From assembly GCF_030068615.1 (NCBI RefSeq), contig NZ_JASJOC010000009.1:1-64000 (forward strand): a stretch of DNA of 64,000 nt, read 5' to 3'. Source of the DNA: Halostagnicola sp. A-GB9-2. Its GTDB lineage: Archaea; Halobacteriota; Halobacteria; Halobacteriales; Natrialbaceae. Under the pieces are notes generated by a model. That model was not told the DNA's origin. It ran no database searches and saw nothing but the letters and a program-made list of their open reading frames with translations. Both the position numbers and the translations under genes were made by a program. Shown one piece after another: positions 12,597 to 39,842 of the stretch; within the stretch, counting starts at the first letter, position 1; the number at the start of each line of letters is the position of its first letter.

Positions 12597-13706
12597 CAGA
12601 TTGATGCAGCAGTCGTTAACGAAGAAGGGGGCGCATTCGATATCGAGGGTGTCGAACTCGAGGAGCCACAGGACAACGAAGTGCTGGTTCGGATCGTCGG
12701 CGCCGGCGTCTGCCACACGGATCTGATCGTTAGGGATCAGCTGTATCCGACGCCGTTGCCGGCGGTACTCGGCCACGAAGGGTCCGGCGTGGTCGAGTCG
12801 GTCGGGGACGGCGTCGCGGCCGTCGAGCCGGGAGACCGAGTCGTCCTGAGCTTCGATTACGACGAGGAGTGTTCCAGCTGTCGCGACGGCCACCCGGCTT
12901 ACTGCGAGGACTTCTTCGCCCACAACTTCGGCGGCGCACGACCCGAAGACGGAACGTCGCCGCTCTCTCAGGACGGCGAGACCGTGAGCGGGCGCTTTTT
13001 CGGACAGTCGTCGTTCGCGACGCACGCGATCGCGACCGAACGGAACGTCGTTCCCGTCGAGGACGACGTTCCGCTCGAGTTGCTCGGGCCGCTCGGCTGC
13101 GGGATCCAGACCGGTGCGGGTGCGGTCATCAACTCCCTGGCACCCGAAACCGGCTCTTCGATCGCCATCTTCGGTGCGGGTTCGGTCGGCCTCTCGGCGG
13201 TGATGGCCGCGGAGATCGAGGGCTGTACGGACATCGTCTCGGTCGAATTGAAGGACAACCGTCGCGAGTTGGCCGCGGATCTCGGCGCGACTGAAACCGT
13301 CGATCCGGCGTCGGTCGACGACGCAGTCAAAGCGGTACGCGAACTGACCGACGGTGGAGTCGATTACGCGCTCGAGACGACCGGCGTTCCCGAGGTGGCC
13401 GAACAGACGATCGCCGCGCTCACCCAGCGGGGGACTGTGGGAATCGTCGGTGCCCCGGCGCTCGGGACCGAGGCGAGCTTCGACGTCAACGATCTCATCC
13501 TTAACGGGCGATCGATTACCGGAATCGTCGAGGGCGATTCGAACCCGAAGCAGTTTATTCCCGACCTCATCGAACTTTACCGCCAGGGGAAGTTCCCGTT
13601 CGACGAACTCGTTACCTATTACGAGTTCGACGAGATCGAAGAGGCGGTTGAGGCTTCGGAGAACGGGGAGACGATCAAGCCGGTACTTCGTGTCGGTGAG
13701 ACATAA
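12594..13706 (+). CDS. Zinc-dependent alcohol dehydrogenase (aryl-alcohol dehydrogenase-like)
   Basis: 370-residue MDR-family NAD(P)-dependent alcohol dehydrogenase. Catalytic zinc ligands are C40 (GVCHTD) and H61-E62 (GHEGSG). The Rossmann motif is FGAGSVGLS. Overall similarity is to the benzyl/aryl-alcohol dehydrogenase branch (VRDQLYPTPLPAVLGHEGSGVVESVG). The structural-zinc lobe reads D-x2-C-x2-C-x7-C, so the first of the usual four cysteines is Asp. The ATG at 12594 is preferred to 12549, which adds unrelated residues. It is monocistronic; the substrate is unknown. Confidence 0.9.
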   Translation: MQIDAAVVNEEGGAFDIEGVELEEPQDNEVLVRIVGAGVCHTDLIVRDQLYPTPLPAVLGHEGSGVVESVGDGVAAVEPGDRVVLSFDYDEECSSCRDGHPAYCEDFFAHNFGGARPEDGTSPLSQDGETVSGRFFGQSSFATHAIATERNVVPVEDDVPLELLGPLGCGIQTGAGAVINSLAPETGSSIAIFGAGSVGLSAVMAAEIEGCTDIVSVELKDNRRELAADLGATETVDPASVDDAVKAVRELTDGGVDYALETTGVPEVAEQTIAALTQRGTVGIVGAPALGTEASFDVNDLILNGRSITGIVEGDSNPKQFIPDLIELYRQGKFPFDELVTYYEFDEIEEAVEASENGETIKPVLRVGET

Positions 13707-34343: not shown

Positions 34344-34707
34344 TGTCCGTTGTGGTCGGCCGGTACCTAAACGGGTTTCTGTCCGCCACTGTCGTGTAAC
34401 GTCACTGCGTACCACGGTTCCCCACTCTCAACGCCCATCCAAAATATCGAATAAACTACTATAATATGTTATTCGAAAGGACTAATTACCATTCTATCAT
34501 GTATACTATTGCAACGTGTTCGATCTGGAAAGTGATGGTGTGAACACGGCGAACGACAGGAAGACGACGCGGGAAGATCGGTCGAAAACGAATCGGCCGA
34601 ACATCCGATCGACGGTGAGAGAATCGTTGTCGGGGGCGTCGAACCGAATCGTTCGTCGAGGCCGGTATCACTTCGACCGAACATCGAACTAACCCGAGTG
34701 GGGGGCT
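34344..34707. other. Gene-free stretch before the SipW/TasA-like locus
   Basis: No credible gene. It contains an AT-rich inverted repeat, TCGAATAA (34447-34454) with TTATTCGA (34469-34476), and the first of several GTATAC hexamers (34501-34506). The region holds the promoters for YchF (leftwards) and for the first DUF7344 gene (rightwards). Confidence 0.6.
34447..34476. promoter_or_regulatory. 8-bp inverted repeat with AT-rich core
   Basis: TCGAATAA and TTATTCGA separated by 14 bases containing ACTACTATAATATG. Possible operator with embedded TATA box. Confidence 0.4.
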
Positions 34708-35319
34708 ATGAGCATTTCAAAACAGTACAATCTGCGTCAGCTGGGGGAACAGCACCGACGGGAGGACGGTAATCTGGTCGACCGGGAAGTCGCCTATCAG
34801 GCGTTGAGCAATAGACGCCGTCGCTTTATCGTTCACTTCCTGTTACGAGAACGGAAACCGATATCGCTCCGAGTGTTATCAAAACAGGTTGCGGCGTGGG
34901 AAAACGCCGTCCCGCGGAAACAGGTCACGTCGAAACAGCGAAAGCGCGTCTACACCGCGTTGCATCAGGCGCACTTACCGAAACTCGATAAGATGGGGAT
35001 CATCGAGTACGACAATCGAGAAATGGTCGCTCACCCGACCGAGAAACTCGGGACGCTTCGGGTCTACATGGATGTCGTTCCCGAGGACGAGATTCCCTGG
35101 AGTGTCTTTTATACGGGTATCGCGCTGATCTTCGGCTCGGGCGCGCTGTTCGGGTGGGCTGGATTCCTCCCCTTCGACGTCCTTCCGGGCTATCTCTGGG
35201 CGCTGATAATCTCTCTGATAATAGTCACGACGGGCCTCTTCAACATCCACAGTGAGTATCGGAATCAGCTCGCAGTAGAGGGCCCGCCGCCGGAAGTTGA
35301 ACGGATCGAACCGTCCTGA
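34708..35319 (+). CDS. DUF7344 membrane-anchored winged-helix regulator, copy 1
   Basis: 203 residues. The N-terminal half is a winged-helix-like DUF7344 domain (REVAYQALSNRRRRFIVHFL, VAAWENAVPRKQVTSKQRKR, HLPKLDKMGIIEYD). Two hydrophobic segments follow at about 133-155 and 160-182, with a short tail. So it looks like a DNA-binding domain tethered to the membrane, facing the cytoplasm. It is a tandem paralogue of the gene at 35622, with a nearly identical DNA core (see findings). It opens the SipW/TasA-like locus and is its likely regulator (inference). Confidence 0.85.
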   Translation: MSISKQYNLRQLGEQHRREDGNLVDREVAYQALSNRRRRFIVHFLLRERKPISLRVLSKQVAAWENAVPRKQVTSKQRKRVYTALHQAHLPKLDKMGIIEYDNREMVAHPTEKLGTLRVYMDVVPEDEIPWSVFYTGIALIFGSGALFGWAGFLPFDVLPGYLWALIISLIIVTTGLFNIHSEYRNQLAVEGPPPEVERIEPS

Positions 35320-35621
35320 TGACTCGAGGGATCGGACGACCACTACGGTCCGTTCGGCTACTATGACCCGTTCGACCGCGTAGTATACACCGAATACGAG
35401 CAGTATACGATCATTGTCGACCAATAGACACTGTTTGTAGCGTCGCAAACACTCTTTGTCGATTCTGCATATAGTGTATACAAAAGTACAACTCTTCCCT
35501 TCTCGAACTCGCGAATGGCAGGTAACGAAACTACTCATCGACACAGCGCTCGGGGTTGTACCGCGTCCGACGGAAGGAATCTGCGTTCGGCCCGCTTCGT
35601 GATCGATGAGGGGGGAGATGA
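35320..35621 (+). promoter_or_regulatory. Gap between the DUF7344 copies, with three GTATAC motifs
   Basis: No gene. GTATAC occurs at 35383-35388, 35403-35408 and 35476-35481; the last is inside GTGTATACAAAAG (35474-35486), repeated exactly at 36523-36535 before the first exported-protein gene. Candidate binding sites for the DUF7344 proteins, though TATA-box function is also possible. Confidence 0.45.
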
Positions 35622-36221
35622 ATGAGTATTACAGAGCAACAGCGACCACGAACACGGTCCCGATCGAGTACCACTCCGATCGATCGGGAAATCGCGTACC
35701 AGGCGTTGAGCAACAGACGGCGACGGTTTACCGTTCACTACCTGATTCAACAGTGGGAGCCGGTCACGCTCCGAACGTTATCCAATCAGGTTGCGGCGTG
35801 GGAAAACGCCGTCCCGCGGAAACAGGTCACGTCGAAACAGCGAAAGCGCGTCTACACCGCGTTACATCAGGCGCACTTACCGAAACTCGATAAGATGGGG
35901 ATCATCGAGTACGACACGAACGAAATGGTTGCCCATCCGACCGACAACATCGAAACGCTTCGGGTCTACATGGATGTCGTTCCCGAGGACGAGATTCCCT
36001 GGAGCGTCTTTTATACGGGTATCGCGCTAAGCTTCGGCTCGAGTGCGTTCCTCGGATGGATCGGGCTAGTTCCGTTCTCCGTGATCCCGGGCGGTGTATG
36101 GGCGGTACTCACCGCATCGATAATCGTCGCCATCGGTACCGTCAACATCTACAGAAACCGCCAGAATCGCCTCGGAAACGAGGGGCCGCCGCCGGAAGTC
36201 GCACACGTCGATCCACCCTGA
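35622..36221 (+). CDS. DUF7344 membrane-anchored winged-helix regulator, copy 2
   Basis: 199 residues with the same plan as copy 1: winged-helix DUF7344 domain, two membrane segments (about 128-152 and 157-178), short tail ending PPPEVAHVDPP. The N-terminal 30 residues differ completely in sequence from copy 1, while residues 55-98 are nearly identical at DNA level. Start ATG at 35622. Duplicated regulator; possible heterodimer with copy 1 (inference). Confidence 0.85.
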   Translation: MSITEQQRPRTRSRSSTTPIDREIAYQALSNRRRRFTVHYLIQQWEPVTLRTLSNQVAAWENAVPRKQVTSKQRKRVYTALHQAHLPKLDKMGIIEYDTNEMVAHPTDNIETLRVYMDVVPEDEIPWSVFYTGIALSFGSSAFLGWIGLVPFSVIPGGVWAVLTASIIVAIGTVNIYRNRQNRLGNEGPPPEVAHVDPP

Positions 36222-36584
36222 TCGTCCCGTTTCTCGTCATTTTGGCTTGTCTGGACACTCGTCACCTCGATTTGTCCGGACGGCATTAGAGTAACGACCC
36301 TGTCCGGATGTCGCCGCTTCGGCCCCGAATGCGGGTGCAATTTGACGGCTCGAGGTATTCTCAGACCGTGTCATAATCGGCTTGCGAGCGGCGTTTTGAA
36401 ACTGGTCCTGTCGCGATTGATTTTCGCGACAGTACACACCGTTTGTCCTCCCGTAGATCCGTTATACGGGCTGTAAACGATGCGTACCGATTCGTACGAT
36501 TTCTTTGTAACATTCACAGCTCGTGTATACAAAAGGAGGTCTCGTCCCTCGCCGAAACTGCGTGAAAACGCAACTGAGAGACAG
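36222..36584 (+). promoter_or_regulatory. Promoter region of the exported-protein operon, with hairpin
   Basis: No gene. A perfect 8-bp hairpin, CTGTCGCG/CGCGACAG (36408-36432, 9-base loop), probably ends the DUF7344 transcript. The 13-bp motif GTGTATACAAAAG (36523-36535) lies about 50 bp before the ATG at 36585 and is followed by GGAGG-like AAAGGAGGT, a strong ribosome-binding sequence. Confidence 0.5.
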
Positions 36585-37124
36585 ATGACGAAAGAAATCC
36601 AACTGACGCGACGGAAGATACTCGCAAGCACAGCACTCATCGGCGGCGCCGGTGCCACCGCAGGCGCAGGCACGTGGGCGTTCTTCAGTGACGAAGAAAC
36701 CAGCGAAGGGAACACGATTTCCGCAGGCACGCTCGAGCTCGACGTGAACGAAGGCGACGGCTTCTCCTACACGTGGGAAAACGCCGCGCCGGGTGACGAG
36801 GAGGAAGTCAGTGTCTCGTTCCAGAACACCGGTTCGATCGACGCCGCGGAGCTGGCGATCGACACCGACGTTTCCGGCGACGAGGATCTCGCGGAGTACA
36901 TCGACCTCGATCTCGAGTACACTAACGGCGACGATCCGGACGGACAGACGCTCGCGGAACTCGCCGACGGCGAACTCTCGCTTGAAGGAATCTCCGCCGG
37001 TGAGGGCGCGAGTATCAGTATCGACGCGACGTTCAACGAGGGGGCGGGCAACGACCTGCAAGGCGCGTCCGTCGAGATCGATCACACGTTCACTCTGCGA
37101 CAGGAACCCGGCGAGGACGGCTGA
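36585..37124 (+). CDS. Exported protein with SipW/TasA-type signal peptide, 1
   Basis: 179 residues from ATG 36585. Its signal sequence is LTRRKILASTALIGGAGATA, with the SipW-cognate motif AGTWAFFSDEETSEGNTISAGTLELDV straddling the cleavage region. The mature part is a beta-rich, very acidic domain (PGDEEEVSVSFQNTGSIDAAELAID, then DDLQGAS-like strands) like camelysin/TasA-family proteins. An upstream in-frame start at 36480 lacks signal-peptide logic. It is followed 25 bp later by its paralogue and then the signal peptidase. Predicted cell-surface or fibre protein (inference). Confidence 0.85.
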   Translation: MTKEIQLTRRKILASTALIGGAGATAGAGTWAFFSDEETSEGNTISAGTLELDVNEGDGFSYTWENAAPGDEEEVSVSFQNTGSIDAAELAIDTDVSGDEDLAEYIDLDLEYTNGDDPDGQTLAELADGELSLEGISAGEGASISIDATFNEGAGNDLQGASVEIDHTFTLRQEPGEDG

Positions 37125-37149
37125 TCGAGCGGCCGCTTTTTCGATACTT

Positions 37150-37893
37150 ATGACAAACGACTCAAATCGAACATTGACGAGGCGGAGTGCGCTGGTCGGA
37201 GTGGCCGGTATCGGACTCGCCTCCGCGGGGGCGGGTGCGGGGACGTTCGCGTACTTCAGCGACGCCGAAACGTCGTCCGGAAACAGCATCCAGGCCGGAA
37301 CAATGGAACTGGACGTCTCGAACGGCTACTCGTTCGAATACGCGTTCAAGGATGTCGCTCCGGGCGATACGACGGCGCAGGCGTACGTCGGCGACGGATG
37401 GGCGAAACGGGACCTCTCGTTCAACGGCGACGCGGTCAACACCGGCAGCGTCGACGCCGCCTGTCTCGCCGTCTACATCGAGCACGAAACGACACCCGGC
37501 GAGGGTCGAGACGGCTCGAGTATGGAGGACGAACTCGAGATCGAGGTCCTCTCCTGGGAGGGGTATGACTACGTCGACGGATTCGAAGTGCTCGGCGAGA
37601 GCGAGGCCGACCTTCCCGGTGACTTCGGATTCGAAGTCGACGGCGACGACTTTTTCGACGTCTTCGAGGCAGGCGAGTCGCTGACGCTCGCCGATCTCTC
37701 GGAGCGGGAGCTCAGGCTCAATCCCTCGCCGCGGACGAACGGTGATCCGTCCTCTGACGGGCGAACGTTCCACTACGACTTCAGGGTCGGCGAAGGGATG
37801 GGCAACGAGTATCAGGGGGCCGAACTGGTCACCGACATCCACTTCGCGCTCTTGCAAGACGAGAGCCAGACGTTCGACGGCACGGTCGGGTAA
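37150..37893 (+). CDS. Exported protein with SipW/TasA-type signal peptide, 2
   Basis: 247 residues from ATG 37150. Signal: LTRRSALVGVAGIGLASAGA followed by AGTFAYFSDAETSSGNSIQAGTMELDVSNG, the same cognate motif as protein 1. The mature domain is larger: an insertion of roughly 60 residues (about 115-180: EDELEIEVLSWEGYDYVDGF, FDVFEAGESLTLADLSERE) interrupts the beta-sandwich pattern, which ends FHYDFRVGEGMGNEYQGAEL. Separated from protein 1 by 25 bp and from the peptidase by 7 bp, so it is in one operon. Confidence 0.85.
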   Translation: MTNDSNRTLTRRSALVGVAGIGLASAGAGAGTFAYFSDAETSSGNSIQAGTMELDVSNGYSFEYAFKDVAPGDTTAQAYVGDGWAKRDLSFNGDAVNTGSVDAACLAVYIEHETTPGEGRDGSSMEDELEIEVLSWEGYDYVDGFEVLGESEADLPGDFGFEVDGDDFFDVFEAGESLTLADLSERELRLNPSPRTNGDPSSDGRTFHYDFRVGEGMGNEYQGAELVTDIHFALLQDESQTFDGTVG

Positions 37894-37900
37894 CACCATC

Positions 37901-38446
37901 ATGAGTAGGGGGATCAGCAAACGACGGGCGCTTCACGTTTCGGGAGTAGTGCTGTTCGTTGCGCTGTTGGTACCGTTTCTCGTGTTCGCAGTGCCCGACG
38001 TCGCCGGGGCCGACGAGAGCTACGTCGTTCTCTCGGACAGCATGAACCCGACGATCGATGCGGGCGACGTCGTGATCGTCCAGGAGCGCGATCCCTTGAG
38101 CATCGAAGAAGGGGACGTACTGACGTTCGACGCGGCTGATCCCGACGAGTTCGATGCGGCCGATGGAACGAGCATCGTCACGCATCGGGTCGTCGACATC
38201 GAGCAGGCGGACGACAGCCTCAAGTTCGTCACGCAGGGCGACGCGAACAACGCCCCGGATAGCTCCGCGGTCGACGAAGAGCAGGTGATCGGGACTGTCG
38301 CGTTTTCGATTCCCTCCATCGGGCGCGTCGTCTCGTTTGCAGGGACCCGAACGGGGCTCGCGCTCTTCGTCGTCGTTCCGTGTGCCTTGCTCGTCGTCAA
38401 CGAACTGTACGAACTCACGGTGAGCGACGAGGGAGGAGAGAGCTGA
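37901..38446 (+). CDS. sipW: SipW/Sec11-type signal peptidase I
   Basis: 181 residues from ATG 37901. Membrane segments lie at about 12-33 and 145-170. The nucleophile is S47 in VLSDSMNPTI. The general base is His, H95 in VTHRVVDI, in place of the bacterial Lys, as in archaeal, ER and SipW-type peptidases. A GDANNAPD motif (114-121) supplies the conserved Asp. It is encoded directly behind two SipW-cognate proteins, as in Bacillus tasA-sipW, so it is presumably their dedicated peptidase. Its stop overlaps the next start (TGATG). Confidence 0.9.
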   Translation: MSRGISKRRALHVSGVVLFVALLVPFLVFAVPDVAGADESYVVLSDSMNPTIDAGDVVIVQERDPLSIEEGDVLTFDAADPDEFDAADGTSIVTHRVVDIEQADDSLKFVTQGDANNAPDSSAVDEEQVIGTVAFSIPSIGRVVSFAGTRTGLALFVVVPCALLVVNELYELTVSDEGGES

Positions 38447-39069
38447 TGGGACGGGTCGCGACCGTATTCAAGCTGCTCGTCCTCTGGGCTGCTGTCCTCA
38501 TGCTTGTGAGTTCCGTTGGCTTCTCGGGGGCGTACTTCAGCGACCAGTCCTCGAGCGACGCCGCGCAGATTACGGTAGCGGAACTCGAGCCGTCGGACGG
38601 AGCCCTCAAATTCACGCCGAAGTCGCTCTCGACAACTAATCAGGGAATCACGACGATCCACCTCGAGCGACCGCCCGATTCTACGATCGATTCCGAGACG
38701 GTCGTCGTGACCGTCGGCGGCGACCCGGTCGATGCACCAGTGCGTACCTGCAATCCGCAAAAATGCCTGTTCGAGCCGACCGCACAGGACATCGTCGACG
38801 CCGGGGGCGTCGGCGAGCCGTTGCTCGTAGTGACGGCCGAACTCGAAAACGGTGCCGAACTCGAGGCCTCGACGACCATCGAGGTCTTCGAACCGCGCGC
38901 CTCGAGCGACGGACCGGATTCGTCCGATTGGAGGGAAGTTGACTCGAGCGCTGGTTCGGCGAACGACGGTACCGACGGCGACCGTGAGACAACTCACGCC
39001 GACGAAAACGCGAGCGATGACGATTCCGAGGAGTCCGCGAGCGTGATCGCGGATCGGCCGCCGCAGTAG
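38446..39069 (+). CDS. Membrane protein with FSD motif and acidic tail, third member of the locus
   Basis: 207 residues. A single N-terminal hydrophobic segment (VFKLLVLWAAVLMLVSSVGF) is followed by SGAYFSDQSSSDAAQITVAEL, an echo of the SipW-cognate motif. A beta-rich ectodomain (about 50-145) contains a Cys pair CNPQKC, and a Ser/Asp/Glu-rich disordered tail of about 55 residues follows. The start overlaps the peptidase stop by one base. It may be a cell-surface anchor or assembly factor for the two exported proteins. Unlike them it lacks a twin-arginine. Confidence 0.75.
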   Translation: MGRVATVFKLLVLWAAVLMLVSSVGFSGAYFSDQSSSDAAQITVAELEPSDGALKFTPKSLSTTNQGITTIHLERPPDSTIDSETVVVTVGGDPVDAPVRTCNPQKCLFEPTAQDIVDAGGVGEPLLVVTAELENGAELEASTTIEVFEPRASSDGPDSSDWREVDSSAGSANDGTDGDRETTHADENASDDDSEESASVIADRPPQ

Positions 39070-39071
39070 GG

Positions 39072-39431
39072 TCAGGGCTCGTCGATGGTGATCGCCTCGA
39101 ACTCCCGCTGGTCCGTGATCGTTCCCGCTCTGATCGCTCGAACGATTCGGATGCCCGCCTGTTTGATGCGATACCCTCCGTCGACTCGTTCGATGAACTC
39201 GACGTCCCGGAGCGTCCGAAAGTGGTAACTGAGGTTACCTGAATCCCGGCTGAAATTGCCCGAGCGTCGCTCGGCGACGCGGTCGGCCAAGTCGGAATAG
39301 GCCAGGAGATCACCTGCGAATTCGTCGGCCGATTGCGTCCGCTCGAGAACATCCAATACGGTGAGCCGGAGGTCGTGACTGAGCACCCGAAACACGTCAC
39401 CGGGCAATTCGTCACCGCACTCTCGGCTCAT
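39072..39431 (-). CDS. Winged-helix transcriptional regulator
   Basis: 119 residues from ATG 39431 (a TTG six bases upstream is less likely). The ArsR-like pattern is VFRVLSHDLRLTVLDVLERT ... SGNLSYHFRTLRDVEFIERVDGGYRIKQAG. It resembles haloarchaeal winged-helix proteins of the DUF7347/ArsR type. Convergent with the SipW locus, with 2 bp between stop codons, hence a plausible local regulator (inference). Confidence 0.85.
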   Translation of the reverse strand: MSRECGDELPGDVFRVLSHDLRLTVLDVLERTQSADEFAGDLLAYSDLADRVAERRSGNFSRDSGNLSYHFRTLRDVEFIERVDGGYRIKQAGIRIVRAIRAGTITDQREFEAITIDEP

Positions 39432-39563
39432 CCACAATCCTGTAAATCGGCACAGTTGAAACTATTGAAGATATACTTCTAATCATGTGTTCTGAAAGTC
39501 ATGACGAGGGTATCACGCCTTGGTATCTTAAGAAGAACCCTTACCAGCAATAGTGAATTTAAC

Positions 39564-39842
39564 CTATCCAACAATTTCTTTCCAGCTCCAGGCGGCGAGT
39601 GCGATCACGGCGAGGGCGATCACGAAGAAGATGCCCCATTGCTGGGTTTCGGTTTCCGCGAAGGGAGCGAAGACATCCACCACACCGGTCGCCTGCATCA
39701 TTCCGATCACGATCGCCAGCAACGTGAATATCGAGACGACGGCGACCCCGATCCAGTTTCGAGCCATCCCCTTGCCCTCCTGCTCGGCCTCCTCCACGTC
39801 ATGCGTCGGTTTTTCGGTCGGCTCTCGATCGGGTTCGGACAT
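39564..39842 (-). CDS. Small two-helix membrane protein, unknown function
   Basis: 92 residues: a charged N-terminus of about 28, hydrophobic helices at about 30-50 and 68-87, and a short end (SWKEIVG). It shares the strand of the methyltransferase gene upstream (67-bp gap). No family is identified. Confidence 0.7.
   Translation of the reverse strand: MSEPDREPTEKPTHDVEEAEQEGKGMARNWIGVAVVSIFTLLAIVIGMMQATGVVDVFAPFAETETQQWGIFFVIALAVIALAAWSWKEIVG

Follow-up and report, generated by a model that had tools for sequence, protein, structure and literature searches.

Does a haloarchaeon possess its own version of the TasA-SipW fibre system of Bacillus? This question is raised by positions 34708-39431 of a 64,000-nucleotide stretch of the Halostagnicola sp. 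A-GB9-2 genome (positions 1 to 64,000 of contig NZ_JASJOC010000009.1, here called the window), in which two TasA/camelysin-like substrate genes are accompanied by a SipW-type signal peptidase, a partner protein with an FSD motif, two membrane-anchored winged-helix proteins of the DUF7344 family and a convergent gene. A first-pass annotation, made from the sequence alone, had interpreted this region as a surface-fibre or secretion module, the substrates of which are matured by a dedicated peptidase and the expression of which is set by membrane-tethered regulators that would sense the surface or export state. All of the genes that it described were found at their positions. Its interpretation as a whole is partly supported, and it largely holds that this haloarchaeal cassette is of the TasA/SipW export type, is probably concerned with fibres and comes with membrane-anchored regulators. 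Two checks had been named, the predicted fold of the mature substrates and the gene order in other genomes. Since the predicted mature substrate 1 best matches TasA and the gene set is kept across many haloarchaeal genera, the interpretation has withstood both.

We consider it probable that this locus encodes a TasA-SipW fibre system of haloarchaeal type that is complete in itself, including its mechanism of maturation, donor-strand assembly, helper and regulation. Established for this reading are homology, the predicted fold, conserved interface and catalytic residues, a conserved gene set and co-occurrence across genomes. According to the proposed mechanism, the two DUF7344 regulators would control the cassette, and the two TasA-like subunits would be held in the membrane by their twin-arginine signal peptides, which are probably directed to the twin-arginine translocation (Tat) pathway. 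The dedicated SipW-type peptidase would then cut at A↓(F/Y)FSD and free an N-terminal strand, which might enter the neighbouring subunit by donor-strand exchange to give a surface or matrix fibre. The FSD protein, which has a donor-strand-like start and lacks the TasA domain, would start, chaperone or anchor this fibre, much like TapA and CapP in Bacillus. The conserved overlapping partner, the linkage to DUF7344 and the RNA leaders found in relatives are unexpected to a specialist.

Two TasA-like substrates

Substrate 1 (36585-37124) and substrate 2 (37150-37893), both on the forward strand, match PF12389 (7.5e-14 and 5.5e-8, with scores of 52.4 and 33.3 bits against a curated cut-off of 22.5) and the SipW-type signal peptide model TIGR04088 (29.8 and 36.5 bits against a cut-off of 19). 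A search of the whole 4.68-Mb genome confined TIGR04088 matches to this locus. As both proteins pass the curated cut-offs of the two models and are the sole TIGR04088 matches in the genome, the match is not due to chance. The SipW-cognate motifs noticed in the first pass are present, as AFFSDEETSEGN...AGTLELDV in substrate 1 and AYFSDAETSSGN...AGTMELDV in substrate 2. Each protein carries a twin-arginine (RR) signal peptide, with predicted cleavage at AGTWA↓FFSDEETS and AGTFA↓YFSDAETS, respectively, and the mature regions are 43% identical. The matches to PF12389, a family that bears the name Peptidase_M73, would favour camelysin-type metallo-endopeptidases, but CalY of B. cereus, which is annotated as camelysin, is a filament protein, and we regard an enzymatic role of this kind as exceedingly improbable. 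An identity as M73 metalloproteases was rejected, the HExxH zinc motif being absent from both substrates.

Mature substrate 1 was modelled with AlphaFold2, using a four-sequence alignment as input. The model is a beta sandwich with a mean predicted local distance difference test (pLDDT) score of 73, in which the first eight residues are of low confidence. Its best matches in the Protein Data Bank, as determined with Foldseek, are the TasA structures 5of2 (E 5e-5, probability 1.00, TMq 0.66) and 5of1, and the TasA fibre solved by cryo-electron microscopy, 8aur, likewise matches with a probability of 1.00. By sequence, substrate 1 resembles the archaeal bundling protein AbpX (E 7e-4), and the profile from the four-sequence alignment matches TasA (E 0.0016).

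At the protomer interface of TasA, residues F29, P62 and Q232 make up the proline box, which is reported to be the best-conserved part of TasA/camelysin alignments (PMC10151520). In profile alignments these residues map to F2, P37 and Q141 of the mature substrate, the equivalence of F29 and F2 being obtained by prolonging the alignment two residues towards the N terminus. All of the 22 haloarchaeal substrates compared have P37 and Q141, and conservation of F2 reaches at least 90%; of the sequence evidence gathered here, this argues most strongly for donor-strand fibres. Judging from the predicted fold and the interface residues, the substrates may form fibres of this type.

Peptidase and overlapping partner

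The S26B signal peptidase gene (37901-38446, forward strand) begins 7 bp past the stop codon of the second substrate, and its product scores 106 bits against the archaeal-type signal peptidase model TIGR02228 (cut-off 51.85). The catalytic residues S47 and H95, correctly assigned in the first pass, are joined by D114 and N116, and all four are invariant across 35 of 35 peptidase sequences. In 100 related genomes, TIGR04088 is found in 36 and close relatives of the window peptidase in 32; 31 genomes have both peptidase and substrates, 63 have neither and 6 are discordant. Together with the invariant catalytic residues and the cleavage motifs, this co-occurrence strongly supports the earlier proposal that the peptidase is dedicated to its substrates.

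The cleavage motif consists of an alanine followed by two aromatic residues (AGTWA↓FFSD and AGTFA↓YFSD in the substrates, SGA↓YFSD in the partner protein). According to one report (PMC10269814), TasA is cleaved poorly by the general signal peptidase of E. coli on account of its aromatic P2' residue, and it therefore needs SipW; the alanine and aromatic P2' residue of the haloarchaeal substrates are the feature to which that report ascribes SipW dependence. A strict twin-arginine motif is present in 91 of 101 substrate starts, a figure that separates RR from other basic pairs and is not an overall frequency, as two basic residues were required in picking the starts. From these sequence features we infer that the folded subunit may be exported by the Tat pathway, with its N-terminal strand freed only by cleavage. 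The genome contains three places with archaeal-type signal peptidases. At one of them (L026:6086-9411, in contig C36 of the same genome, G000), genes for a DUF5305 protein, a 525-aa peptidase and a DUF7344 protein with two membrane helices follow one another.

The start codon of the partner gene (38446-39069, forward strand) lies at 38446 and overlaps the stop codon of the peptidase gene. The first-pass annotation had noted this overlap and taken the product for a membrane protein; the overlap stands, whereas the protein is more likely a processed helper, secreted or anchored, than an ordinary membrane protein. It has a hydrophobic start, the sequence SGA↓YFSDQSSSD, an acidic tail and, in a low-confidence model, an Ig-like beta domain. 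That this third component is conserved had been overlooked. Next to 35 of 37 peptidase genes lies a gene in the same orientation, which in 32 cases overlaps or abuts the peptidase gene, and in 31 the protein that it encodes has a hydrophobic start followed by A-x-(F/L)-(S/T)-(D/A), with two further near misses. Among control open reading frames with a hydrophobic start, the motif is present in 6 of 116 (5%). Most of the partner proteins continue as Asp/Glu-rich acidic tails and lack a TasA domain. The positional counterpart on a Halobellus plasmid is annotated as a "TasA family protein", and that of Natrarchaeobaculum as a "SipW-dependent-type signal peptide-containing protein".

In B. subtilis, TapA gives its N terminus to TasA, and tapA overlaps sipW (PMC10151520). 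CapP of B. cereus, a chaperone of CalY, has a beta-rich N-domain and is anchored through a disordered tail (PMC13082335). By analogy with these two proteins, a role as donor-strand starter, cap or anchor is proposed for the FSD protein.

Candidate membrane-anchored regulators and comparison with known systems

Upstream of the substrates are two DUF7344 winged-helix genes on the forward strand, regulator candidates 1 (34708-35319; PF24035, 1.9e-27) and 2 (35622-36221; PF24035, 6.2e-29). Hydropathy analysis bore out the two membrane helices originally noted in each, which are C-terminal in both proteins (in regulator 1, hydrophobic segments 133-151 and 162-180). In the regions around TIGR04088 hits, 38 of 39 peptidase genes have a DUF7344 gene no more than 12 kb away, and the single gene without one belongs to a cassette split between two retrieved stretches. 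Of 81 DUF7344 genes neighbouring cassettes, 62 show two membrane helices by hydropathy. As a conserved neighbour of the peptidase, DUF7344 makes the earlier claim of membrane-tethered regulators of the module well supported. We considered whether these genes might be bystanders, common in haloarchaea and controlling something else. The genome does contain about 23 DUF7344 homologues, many of which are beside other loci. Against this, the 39 peptidase genes have 72 DUF7344 genes within 12 kb, compared with about 0.12 expected for each peptidase gene from the density in the window's own genome; the closest homologue of regulator 2 outside the genus (66% identity, genome G015; the next relatives reach at most about 46%) itself sits within a cassette; and a DUF7344 gene with two membrane helices adjoins the second non-housekeeping signal peptidase of the genome. 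A bystander role is quite improbable; the favoured reading is that the DUF7344 pair regulates the cassette, and it may do so in response to the surface or export state.

The two DUF7344 genes are 84% alike over their core (34778-35207 and 35679-36110), as compared with 77-80% to their orthologues. That the paralogues are closer to each other than to the orthologues suggests that gene conversion has homogenised them. A literature search on DUF7344 found no paper. A precedent is provided by the membrane-bound regulator arCOG00381, which lies beside haloarchaeal type IV pilin genes (PMC4858521). Other DUF7344 genes of this genome with two helices (L097, L099 and L100) adjoin surface-polysaccharide-like genes and genes for a DUF1616-like membrane protein and a secreted protein.

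The cassette resembles tapA-sipW-tasA of B. subtilis in having a TasA-fold subunit, a SipW-type peptidase in the operon, a matching cleavage motif and an accessory SipW-motif protein, the gene of which overlaps that of the peptidase. It differs in having two subunits with RR (Tat-like) signal peptides, an accessory protein that is unrelated in sequence and positioned after the peptidase, and membrane-anchored DUF7344 regulators in place of SinR. It also resembles sipW-tasA/capP/calY of B. cereus (PMC13082335), in which SipW processes two camelysin subunits and a helper made up of a beta domain and a disordered tail; the helper candidate of the window shows the motif, the acidic tail and the gene overlap, with a beta domain seen at low confidence. 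The two helpers have no detected relation in sequence, and gene order and regulators are different. The archaeal bundling pili AbpA of Pyrobaculum and AbpX of Pyrodictium are TasA-like donor-strand fibres, and AbpX matches substrate 1, but their hosts are hyperthermophilic crenarchaea, for which no report of a linked set of peptidase, helper and DUF7344 was found in the literature consulted. Haloarchaeal type IV pilus loci likewise have a membrane-bound regulator beside the pilus genes (PMC4858521), but they use type IV pilin assembly machinery, and arCOG00381 is likened to DUF7344 here by its role.

Several observations weigh against the identification of the locus as a fibre system of the TasA-SipW type. 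The substrate scores 30.2 bits with the TasA equivalog NF046066 (cut-off 450) and the peptidase 92.5 bits with the Bacillus SipW equivalog NF046067 (cut-off 190); with scores so far under the cut-offs, these proteins are relatives of TasA and SipW and not their orthologues. The substrate 1 model, made from four sequences, is of medium confidence. The FSD protein of the window matches no Pfam or NCBIfam family and has no detected sequence homology to TapA or CapP; its model has a pLDDT of 66, which is low, and a fold search with it was uninformative. The DNA binding of DUF7344 is putative, and the co-occurrence of peptidase and substrates (Fisher p about 2e-19) is uncorrected for the relatedness of the genomes. 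The fibre polymer itself is a prediction from the modelled fold and the interface residues, a point that also favours another reading, in which the substrates are non-polymerising secreted or surface-bound proteins with a TasA fold (S-layer-associated, adhesive or vesicle proteins) and the peptidase does no more than mature them. The relatives do differ widely in size and bear inserted domains, including von Willebrand A (vWA), as adhesins do. However, the subunit-interface residues of TasA are conserved in the haloarchaeal relatives, as is the donor-strand-like partner beside the peptidase, and a set of non-polymerising proteins appears unlikely.

If the locus does encode a fibre system, a complete TasA-type set (peptidase, two subunits, helper candidate and regulators) would be placed in genetically accessible haloarchaea, so that an archaeal counterpart to the biofilm-fibre operon of Bacillus would be open to laboratory testing. 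The matrix fibres of Bacillus would then seem to share their helper-plus-peptidase logic with another domain, and DUF7344, a large family of haloarchaeal proteins whose function is unknown, has gained a candidate function.

Distribution of the cassette and elements upstream of its genes

The distribution of the cassette is patchy, even inside genera. A scan of genome contigs gave a single relative, Halostagnicola sp. A56 (L027). In this genome, as in the sister loci L057 and L059 (the latter probably the same strain as L027), the order is the same and the same YchF gene lies alongside. Genome G003 of the same genus (L104) is without the segment matching 34417-39580 of the window, but between YchF and the homologue of window position 39580 it has a scar of roughly 32 bp from the DUF7347 gene (its 3' end), a sign that the cassette was lost. 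A mobile insertion with border repeats was considered and rejected, as none was evident and the remnant in G003 points to loss instead. Plasmids carry the cassette in Natrarchaeobaculum, Natronorubrum, Halobellus and other genera, and TIGR04088 hits are also present in H. volcanii. None of the viral contigs searched encodes a relative of substrate 1. TasA-like subunits with an inserted vWA domain, like fibre-borne adhesins, are found at L079:9597-11399:-, L079:11432-13159:-, L072:10837-12990:+ and L061:11008-13131:+, and a 972-aa relative in L084 carries PKD/Ig domains.

The convergent winged-helix gene at the end of the locus (39072-39431, reverse strand; PF24038, 4.6e-18) is present as originally annotated, but it is a truncated DUF7347 gene, a point missed in the first pass: its product has 119 aa, as compared with about 320 aa for the full-length versions in the sister species (L027 and L057), where a GNAT gene precedes it.

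Several DNA elements are located upstream of the window genes. About 50 nucleotides upstream of substrate 1 is a promoter- or operator-like element, CGTGTATACAAAAGG (36522-36536), and upstream of regulator 2 the same element recurs as GTGTATACAAAAG (35474-35486); both are on the forward strand and conserved in L027, L057 and L059. Two more GTATAC palindromes, AGTATACACC and CAGTATACGA (35383-35408, forward strand), also lie upstream of regulator 2, and GTATAC at 34501-34506 (forward strand) lies upstream of regulator 1. All GTATAC copies in the 14-18 kb loci of L027, L057 and L059 stand before regulator 2 or substrate 1, in the forms AGTATACGA and GTGTATACAAAAG. In the 64-kb window, GTATAC is seen 10 times compared with 8.4 expected, with 5 within 2 kb of the locus. 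As a binding site for DUF7344 at the cassette promoter the cluster is only suggestive, and GTGTATACAAAAG may simply be a core promoter. Directly before substrate 1 is a leader hairpin, TGCGT-GAAA-ACGCA (36559-36572, forward strand), which has a longer perfect stem in the sister species.

Many cassettes of other haloarchaea carry, ahead of the later substrate genes, the sequence GGCGG-TTCGACT-CCGCC-GGTGGG, a leader that forms a perfect hairpin like a tRNA T-arm, with the T-loop of tRNA and an acceptor-like 3' strand, usually accompanied by a CCCC..GGGG hairpin near the ribosome site (L079, for example at 13083-13196:-, L072, L092, L088, L062 and others). In 101 upstream regions that were unselected for the leader, TTCGAnT is present 32 times, with a perfect 5-bp stem in 28 cases and a position 31-43 nucleotides before the ATG in 29; the reversed-sequence control gave none. 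The T-stem covaries, with 18 double-changed cells compared with 6 in shuffles, a count favoured by the choice of the stems, which were picked for pairing. For the acceptor-like strand, a full 6-nucleotide partner is present upstream in 15 of 41 cases, as against 9% in swapped controls.

When 61 whole genomes were searched with a covariance model, 26 matches reached 37 bits or more, 22 of them in TIGR04088 loci; the next match, at 31.8 bits, is partial. The other 4 are in two related loci (L106 and L107) that have tandem exported GTGAFTSV..ADR proteins, which we take to be DUF1102-like, and a DUF7344 gene with two membrane helices; L107 also has a SipW-like peptidase. The covariance search gave nothing credible in the window or the sister cassettes, and in the window's genome no leader beyond a partial match of 21 nucleotides. 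Rfam has no matching family for the leader RNAs of three scanned loci, nor for the window region, and the leader is apparently undescribed so far. Engineered tRNA-like elements serve as cleavage sites for RNase P and tRNase Z in Haloferax (PMC4946936), which makes leader processing of a polycistronic mRNA one possibility; the leader might alternatively be a ribosome-site switch. Either way, it raises the separate question of tRNA mimicry in mRNA control.

These elements could be part of a wider haloarchaeal system, in which Tat-exported, pre-folded subunits would polymerise under SipW control with a donor-only helper as starter or cap, DUF7344 would read subunit export, and the T-arm leader would set subunit proportions, by RNase P/tRNase Z processing or ribosome-site sequestration, in the many members outside this window that carry it. 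We hold this extended scheme to be possible but doubtful. In other genera, a further element, GACGT-N8-(A/G)TAACTA, was found with 15 matches in 43 loci (L061, L068, L079, L082, L092 and others), apparently always upstream of substrate genes and mostly before the first of a cluster; it is a possible operator or unusual promoter.

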